Part shown: piece by piece, positions 13 through 1,954 of the stretch | How positions within the stretch are numbered: position 1 is the first letter of the stretch | How the letters are laid out: every line of letters starts with the position of its first letter | Assembly: GCA_027051265.1 (NCBI GenBank) | Contig: JALTZH010000172.1 | Location: 1-11,753, forward strand | From: an archaeon | GTDB taxonomy: Archaea > Hydrothermarchaeota > Hydrothermarchaeia > JALTZZ01 > JALUTC01 | DNA length: 11,753 nucleotides | Direction of reading: 5' to 3' | Program-made: the position numbers and the translations under genes | The notes under the pieces: generated by a model | What the model was told of the DNA's origin: nothing | Seen by the model: only the letters and a program-made list of their open reading frames with translations | Databases searched by the model: none

Positions 13-1458
13 TTAACCTTTAGCTACTCCTATTGGTCTAAGTTTAGCGACTTTAATAGAAATACCAGCGTTATGACAAACTTCTACCACATCACTAACG
101 TTTTTATAAGCGCCTGGCGCTTCTTCTGCTGCAACTGGTTTACTTGCTACTCTTACATATATTCCTTTTCCTGCAAGCTCTTGTATTACTCTTTCTCCCC
201 TATATATTCGTTTTGCTCTTTCTCTACTTAAAACTCGACCAGCACCATGACACGTTGATCCAAATGTTTCTTTCATAGCTCTTTCAGTACCAACTAATAC
301 ATAGCTTGCACGCCCCATATCTCCTGGAATTAATACCGGTTGTCCTATATTCTTATACTTTGAAGGTATCTCTGCATGATTCTTTGGAAATGCTCTGGTG
401 GCTCCTTTTCTATGTACGTATACTTTTATCTTCTTTCCATCAATCTCATGCTCCTCCAGTTTTGCCATGTTATGTGCAACATCATAAATCGGTGCGATAC
501 CTAAAGATTCTGCATCTTTACCAAATACCTGTTCAAAACTTTCTCTAACCCAATGTGTTATCGCTTGCCTGTTTGCAAACGCATAATTTGCTGCTGAACA
601 CATTGCTTTAAAGTAATTTTGACCTTCAGGTGAATTAACCGGCGCGCATGCAAGCTCTCTATCTGGTAGCTTTATACCGTATTTTCTTATAGCTCTTTCT
701 AATATTTGTAGATAATCAGTACAAACTTGATGTCCTAAACCACGGCTACCTGTATGAACCATTATAGTAATTTGACCAACCTCATATATCCCCATAACTC
801 TAGCAATTTCAGGTTCGTAAATTTCCTCAACATATTGAACTTCAAGAAAATGATTTCCAGAACCAAGTGTTCCAATCTGTTGGACACCTCTTCTTTTCGC
901 AAAGTTTGAAACTGTTGTTGGATCTGCATATTTCATTTGTCCTCTTTCTTCTATAAATTCTAAATCCTTTTCATAACCGTAACCATTCTCGATGCACCAT
1001 TTTGCACCTAATTTTAAAACGTTATCGAGTTCGGATATTGATACCTTAATTTTTCCAGTTCTACCAACACCAGAAGGAACATTTCTAAATATCGTATCTA
1101 CTAATTCTTTTATCCTGGGCTTAACGTCTTTCAATGTTAAATCCGTCTTTAATAATCTTACTCCACAATTGATATCATAACCAACTCCTCCGGGAGATAT
1201 TACTCCATCTTCAGCATTGGTTGCAGCAACTCCTCCAATTGGAAAACCATAACCGTAATGAATATCAGGCATTGCAATTGAGTATTTAACTATTCCAGGT
1301 AAACATGCTACGTTTATCGCTTGTTCTATAGCTCCTTCTTCAATTTCGTTAAGCATTTTGCTCGATGCATATATTCTGGCTGGTACTCTCATGCATTGTT
1401 TTTGTCCGGATTCAATTTCCCAAAGATAGTTATGAATTTTTTTGAACTTAAATCTCAT
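13..1458 (-). CDS. rtcB: RtcB, GTP-dependent tRNA-splicing ligase
   Basis: RtcB joins RNA ends carrying a 2',3'-cyclic phosphate (or 3'-phosphate) to 5'-OH ends, using GTP and Mn2+; in archaea it seals tRNA exons after intron removal. The 481-residue protein has the full active site: D95 and C98 in [10 protein letters not shown]202/H203 in [10 protein letters not shown]235 in [12 protein letters not shown]329 in YDVAHN, and the guanylated histidine H404 in STCHGAGR. These positions match the Pyrococcus enzyme almost exactly. No intein is present, although archaeal rtcB is a frequent intein host. No archease gene lies beside it in this window. The ATG start has no clear Shine-Dalgarno site; a TATA-like AATATTTAA (+ strand 1480-1488) centred about 26 nt upstream suggests a leaderless or nearly leaderless message. 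The stop is 12 nt from the window edge. Confidence 0.97.
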
Positions 1459-1488: not shown

Positions 1489-1539
1489 TCCAAAATTTTA
1501 ATTGTTCACTTCCTTTATTTTTCCGTTGCTTGCAAGATC

Positions 1540-1567
1540 CCTTGCGAAATCAAGAGGATACGCAAGG
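1540..1567 (+). repeat. Left-end hairpin of the element
   Basis: CCTTGCG (1540-1546) and CGCAAGG (1561-1567) are perfect inverted repeats around a 14-nt loop, about 30 nt inside the left GTTCAC. IS200/IS605 ends carry subterminal hairpins recognised by TnpA, so the placement fits. Confidence 0.5.
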
Positions 1568-1640
1568 AGAAATGAGCGAGAGAAGGATAGAAATGTTTGC
1601 TAACGTTAATGTTAGAGTTTTGCAGTTTAGCCCTCATGGA

Positions 1641-1820
1641 GCTTAGTTCGGTTCCAACAACTTGACCGCTAAGCAGATATATATCGTGTAAGTAGCACCG
1701 CCATCCCTCTATACGGGATGGATAGGAGTAGAGGTGGCGTGAACCTGCCTGTGGGGTAAAGCACCCGATAAGGGTGTAAACCTTCACAAAATCCTGTCCG
1801 TAATGGCAGGGGTAGTTCAC
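1641..1820 (+). ncRNA. Highly structured segment, candidate omega-RNA-like or other structured RNA
   Basis: Several strong helices follow each other. GCTTAG 1641-1646 pairs with CTAAGC 1669-1674, enclosing CGGT 1649-1652 with ACCG 1665-1668. CCATCCC 1701-1707 pairs with GGGATGG 1715-1721. CACCC 1762-1766 pairs with GGGTG 1772-1776. CCTGTC 1793-1798 pairs with GGCAGG 1805-1810. A long-range pairing of GTGAACCTGCC (1739-1749) with GGCAG (1805-1809) and GTTCAC (1815-1820) competes with the last hairpin. In TnpB elements the guide RNA covers the 3' end of tnpB and the right end, so a + strand RNA would fit. The helices are equally possible on the minus strand, so the strand is inferred from the TnpB remnant. 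Expression is unknown. Confidence 0.4.
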
Positions 1821-1954
1821 TAATCCTCCGTAATTATTTTTTCGAGACATCTTGAACATATATAGCCTTCAACTCCTCTATAAAAAAATCTATAAAGTTT
1901 TGTTTCGGATTCTTTTCTCTTACAATATTTACAGGATTTGCTTAACTCTTCCAT
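1820..1954 (-). CDS. 44-residue two-CxxC zinc-ribbon-like mini-protein
   Basis: A short ORF begins with ATG only 2 nt after the stop of the upstream kinase gene, an arrangement typical of translational coupling. The 44-residue product carries CKYC (C8, C11) and CSRC (C33, C36) about 21 residues apart, many Lys/Arg/Glu residues and aromatic residues between the pairs (LYRFFYRG). This is the layout of a single treble-clef or zinc-ribbon unit binding one metal ion. I do not recognise the family. A metal-dependent nucleic-acid or protein-binding role is likely, but no function can be assigned. Its TAG stop falls exactly where the neighbouring putative IS element begins: the last base of the stop is the terminal base of that element, so the natural C-terminus may have been longer. 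Confidence 0.7.
   Translation of the reverse strand: MEELSKSCKYCKRKESETKLYRFFYRGVEGYICSRCLEKIITED

Follow-up and report, generated by a model that had tools for sequence, protein, structure and literature searches.

A probable TnpB-less mini-element with an omega-RNA-like right end in a genome of the Hydrothermarchaeota

The locus

The stretch of DNA that we analysed (11,753 nucleotides, hereafter the window) belongs to an archaeal genome assembly of 1.46 Mb in 257 contigs that is 95% complete (G000). Between an rtcB-like gene and a short zinc-ribbon-like open reading frame, it contains an intergenic block that differs from its surroundings in composition and in fold. The features are listed here in window coordinates, with two further genomes named for comparison, one from the same order (G002) and one from the same genus (G001).

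13-1458, minus strand: rtcB-like gene, named from its sequence
1504-1509, plus strand: GTTCAC in the left flank, outside the element; missing from other copies and at chance frequency
1514-1518, plus strand: TTTAT target and presumed TAM, in the flank of the element; found ahead of the conserved left end in almost every copy aligned
1519-1820, plus strand: mini-element of 302 bp, with dispersed copies in G000 and G002; borders from the comparison of copies and from rejoined flanks
1519-1598, plus strand: left end, common to full-length TnpB elements; 80.7% identical to L017 over window 1514-1598
1540-1567, plus strand: left-end hairpin CCTTGCG...CGCAAGG, from the centroid structure
1625-1674, plus strand: internal hairpin GTTTAGC...GCTAAGC, common to the mini-copies; outer five pairs retained in 7 of 8 copies
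1686-1820, plus strand: right end and putative omega-RNA scaffold; match of 116.7 bits to a covariance model built from 12 sequences, the window among them, together with alignment and pair counts
1691-1807, plus strand: remnant of a TnpB C-terminus with two in-frame stops; tblastn against residues 377-413 of the TnpB of G002, E 0.002
1815-1820, plus strand: GTTCAC, right terminus of the element, common to the right ends of the family
1820-1954, minus strand: C4 zinc-ribbon-like protein of 44 amino acids, with its open reading frame at 1823-1954
1821-1840, plus strand: flank that would be the guide if the RNA were used, as in known TnpB systems

An earlier note on this DNA had described the block as rich in G+C and in hairpins, and both descriptions hold. 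The G+C content is 46.7%, as compared to 32.5% for the window, and no other 302-bp stretch exceeds 43.0%. On the plus strand, the block folds with a minimum free energy of −112.6 kcal/mol (z −5.2), which none of 100 shuffles equalled; on the minus strand, only z −1.85 is reached. Palindromes lie near both termini, namely the left-end hairpin and the hairpins of the right end, and the repeat search reported no inverted repeat that pairs the two element ends with each other. With its 302 bp, the element is too short for TnpA or TnpB, and the sole open reading frame listed over it runs antisense and has no match in Pfam.

Copies in two genomes and TnpB-bearing relatives

The search for further copies that the earlier note had suggested showed that the block is not single-copy, but dispersed in two genomes. 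At E ≤ 0.01, a nucleotide search found 10 places in G000, one of which is the window copy; the best match among the others has 77% identity. An eleventh place, on contig C17, came from a covariance model of the right end. Eleven places were found by nucleotide search in G002, two of them complete mini-copies. The same kind of search with the block gave no match in the same-genus genome, and the element had no match in a plasmid collection. Nine mini-copies or remains can be aligned (seven from G000 and the two from G002), and they are alike in length and layout in both genomes, the window copy being 66-67% identical to those of G002. The other copies in G000 are decayed. Pairwise identities among the copies range from 47 to 75%, and this therefore is an old, decaying family rather than the product of a recent burst.

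The mini-element consists of the left end of the family, a short internal segment (about 1599-1690) without alignment to the TnpB genes of G002, and the whole right end, and it is inserted directly 3′ of TTTAT. Its terminal sixteen nucleotides, GGCAGGGGTAGTTCAC (1805-1820), form the terminus common to the whole family. Full-length relatives are found in G002, where several copies of about 1.45 kb carry the left end of the window copy, a TnpB gene and the same right end. Besides the similarity of the left ends given above, part of the right end is 82% identical over window 1690-1756; the full copies end in GTAGTTCAC, a right end that they share with the window copy (...GGGGTAGTTCAC). The encoded protein matches the profiles OrfB_IS605 (PF01385, E 2e-10) and Cas12f1-like_TNB (PF07282, E 4e-6), as well as guided_TnpB (NF040570) with an E value of 7.5e-22 that lies below the curated cut-off of that model. 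G002 has 19 matches to the TnpB of the family, many of them fragments.

The ends of the block match those that flank TnpB genes in G002, and copies without TnpB occur in two genomes; it is therefore highly probable that we are dealing with a PATE-like mini-element that lacks TnpB and derives from a solo-TnpB transposon (IS1341-type, IS200/IS605 superfamily). The earlier note had reached a PATE- or MITE-like reading from the window alone, and the match to the ends of TnpB elements agrees with it. The broken TnpB C-terminus that it had reported is also present, though in the right half of the block and not between the left hairpin and the right half.

As an aside, the TnpB family of G002 (L025:1507-2748 and relatives) lacks the CxxC zinc-finger motif, and it has an aspartate in place of the RuvC-II glutamate of its relatives (VGDG versus IGEL).

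Borders and target site

The block had been described as bounded by GTTCAC on both sides. The right-hand motif stands as the family terminus, whereas the left-hand one had to be given up as a border: the copies start with TTTAT (window 1514) and then the conserved left end, and almost every aligned copy has TTTAT before or within its left end. The GTTCAC at 1504-1509 lies in the flank by chance: other copies lack it, and the window holds three matches to this hexamer on both strands, as compared to 2.8 expected.

The borders were placed to the nucleotide with the help of an interrupted gene in G002. When the left flank of the copy on its contig C17, up to and including TTTAT, is joined to the right flank of the copy on its contig C4, starting after GTTCAC, a single open frame results (...GDIVVFMDADGQHKPEE...) that encodes a family 2 glycosyltransferase (Glycos_transf_2, PF00535, E 1.4e-28). 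The frame is restored exactly at these two junctions and without target duplication, and a chance fit of this kind is unlikely. It follows that TTTAT lies just outside the element and that GTTCAC forms its last six bases, such that the element in the window extends from 1519 to 1820. TTTAT is also the predicted TAM of the solo tnpB of S. islandicus (PMC10640517). The two halves of the glycosyltransferase gene adjoin different element copies on different contigs (C17 and C4; L023 and L017), which implies that copies recombined or that the assembly switched between them.

At the locus in the window, the stop codon of the zinc-ribbon frame straddles the right element junction, and the protein would keep its last residue if the flanks were joined. 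The same-genus genome carries the zinc-ribbon frame without the element, yet its other neighbour differs. Gene order in that genome differs both beside the kinase gene and beside the zinc-ribbon frame, such that it offers no exact empty site for the window copy. A weak match to the right flank in another genome (G008, L051) was discarded, as it is not the zinc-ribbon frame. Relatives of the zinc-ribbon-like protein occur in most genomes of the class, and there is a second copy on contig C50 of G000. Furthermore, the locus of the window recurs at 99.97% identity in a record (WAOB01000101.1, L073) with the title DPANN group archaeon isolate S141_124_esom, which may come from the same population or be a mis-binned contig.

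The right end as a putative omega-RNA

The right ends of mini-copies and full copies can be aligned along some 130 bases, with a consensus of 24 pairs in four helices. Of the alignment cells at these positions, 92.4% are paired, as compared to 32-56% when the partners are slid, and four pairs show two-sided changes. The covariation score was reached in 11 of 500 shuffles, and related sequences can beat such shuffles without structure. Support for a conserved structure of the right end may thus be called moderate. The right 135 bp of the block match the covariance model of the TnpB-linked right end, that is, of the putative omega-RNA, and in the window this match overlaps the TnpB remnant. Across 394 genomes, the model has matches in 27; in the two cases from outside the order that we inspected (L081 and L082), the match either overlaps a TnpB gene or has one immediately upstream. 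A search of the window against Rfam gave nothing at gathering score, and two matches below threshold, to trypanosome LSU and engA, were set aside as low-score chance.

RNAalifold with all nine mini-copies finds hardly any consensus structure (8 pairs), owing to the decay and the gaps in most of them. Folded singly, the sister copies in G000 have z scores from −2.6 to +1.2, and the strong fold is therefore not general among the copies. The orphan omega-RNA that the earlier note had envisaged survives solely in the sense of a segment that resembles an omega-RNA and would have been inherited with the element.

Transposase and nuclease in the genome of the window

We found no intact cognate TnpB in G000 and no Y1_Tnp domain or TnpA in either G000 or G001, in the case of G000 in an assembly of 257 contigs from which mobile genes are easily lost. 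What G000 does contain is a distant TnpB with 28% identity on contig C52, whose frame is open to the contig end. Without a Y1 transposase and an intact TnpB of the family, the copies in G000 can probably no longer move, although mobile genes often drop out of fragmented assemblies.

Contig C17 of G000 (L119, 3400-6500) carries a TnpB of another sequence type that is broken into several open reading frames, and its right end still matches the right-end model. G002 has one Y1 TnpA (L026, on contig C65) next to a different TnpB in divergent orientation, and this transposase is a candidate for having acted in trans on the mini-elements.

Origin of the mini-element and other readings

We propose that the mini-element arose when an internal deletion removed most of the TnpB gene from a full-length ancestor. 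A Y1 transposase would then have mobilised the shortened element as single-stranded DNA, acting in trans because the family carries no such enzyme of its own. In this way, the short form may have spread in the lineage of the window and in its relative, and the copies in G000 would have been stranded later, after the loss of both transposase and nuclease. The right end would be an omega-RNA-like scaffold, inherited along with an end that matters for mobility and most likely idle today, such that the mini-element in the window is most likely a fossil.

A different reading is that the window copy is a guide RNA kept without its nuclease, in which case it would be transcribed and act in trans with the TnpB of another element, or serve the host. 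Selection would then have maintained the fold after loss of the nuclease, for use with a TnpB of another family (e.g., the one on C52) or in a role free of any nuclease. Such a role is possible, and it is the good fold of this one copy that speaks for it: the window copy, with z −5.2 to −6.0, has a stronger fold than any other. Its right end is complete, the right-end alignment shows moderate covariation, and with the distant TnpB on C52 a conceivable partner is at hand. However, the covariation takes in the TnpB-linked copies and may predate the loss of the nuclease, the sister copies have decayed and their folds are at most slightly better than those of shuffles, and the cognate nuclease was not found intact in this genome. 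We consider this reading improbable, in both its trans-acting and its nuclease-free form.

That the block is an ordinary structured RNA of the host unrelated to transposons, as a G+C-rich, well folding and intergenic stretch might suggest, is refuted by its dispersed copies whose two ends are common to TnpB elements, besides the TnpB remnant within it and the lack of a match in Rfam, and we regard it as highly improbable.

Relation to known systems

The fossil mini-element that we favour is a well-preserved archaeal case of a kind already described, and not a new kind. Its closest precedent is a PATE-like element of 271 nt in Halanaerobium hydrogeniformans, which has the same anatomy in that it joins a left-end hairpin to the final 58 nt of tnpB and the complete right end and contains nothing more (PMC7290912). 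However, that element belongs to another family and is present in one copy in a bacterium, whereas the family described here is archaeal, occurs in several copies across two genomes and contains an additional internal segment. Archaeal, core-deleted derivatives of IS605/IS1341-type elements are likewise known from Haloquadratum walsbyi, where PATEs such as HqIRS71 and a core-deleted ISHwa23 arose in this way (PMC3119063). Homogeneous PATEs of Haloquadratum are more than 90% identical to each other (PMC3119063), in contrast to the decayed copies of the present family with their much lower identities.

With respect to the right end, the solo-tnpB elements of S. islandicus are comparable in that their predicted TAM is TTTAT and they lack tnpA, and their conserved right end is taken as the omega-RNA gene (PMC10640517); unlike the window copy, they encode TnpB. 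The haloarchaeal sotRNAs or omega-RNAs (RF02656, RF02657) overlap the 3′ end of tnpB (PMC12558985) and lie in tnpB genes, whereas the window has no match to any Rfam family at gathering score.

Our analysis documents an archaeal family of TnpB-derived mini-elements with its target, its ends and its TnpB-bearing relatives, and it provides a clean natural case of a right end with a guide-RNA-like scaffold that outlives its nuclease. It makes testable whether orphan loci resembling omega-RNAs are transcribed and used in trans, or are fossils only. In this context, standalone omega-RNA loci of IscB have reportedly been described by Altae-Tran and colleagues in 2021, with the cognate nuclease present and use in trans proposed. 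The window copy shares with them a putative guide-RNA locus without an adjoining nuclease, but differs in that its genome yielded no intact cognate nuclease.

The exact left-end pattern was also found in 16 stretches of a species collection, in records under the names Alkanophaga, Alkanophagales, Methanoxibalbensis, Archaeoglobaceae, Geoglobus, Thermococci and others. Some of these stretches look like mini forms with other interiors, with a length of 245 bp in one case (L064) and of about 129 bp in another (L077).
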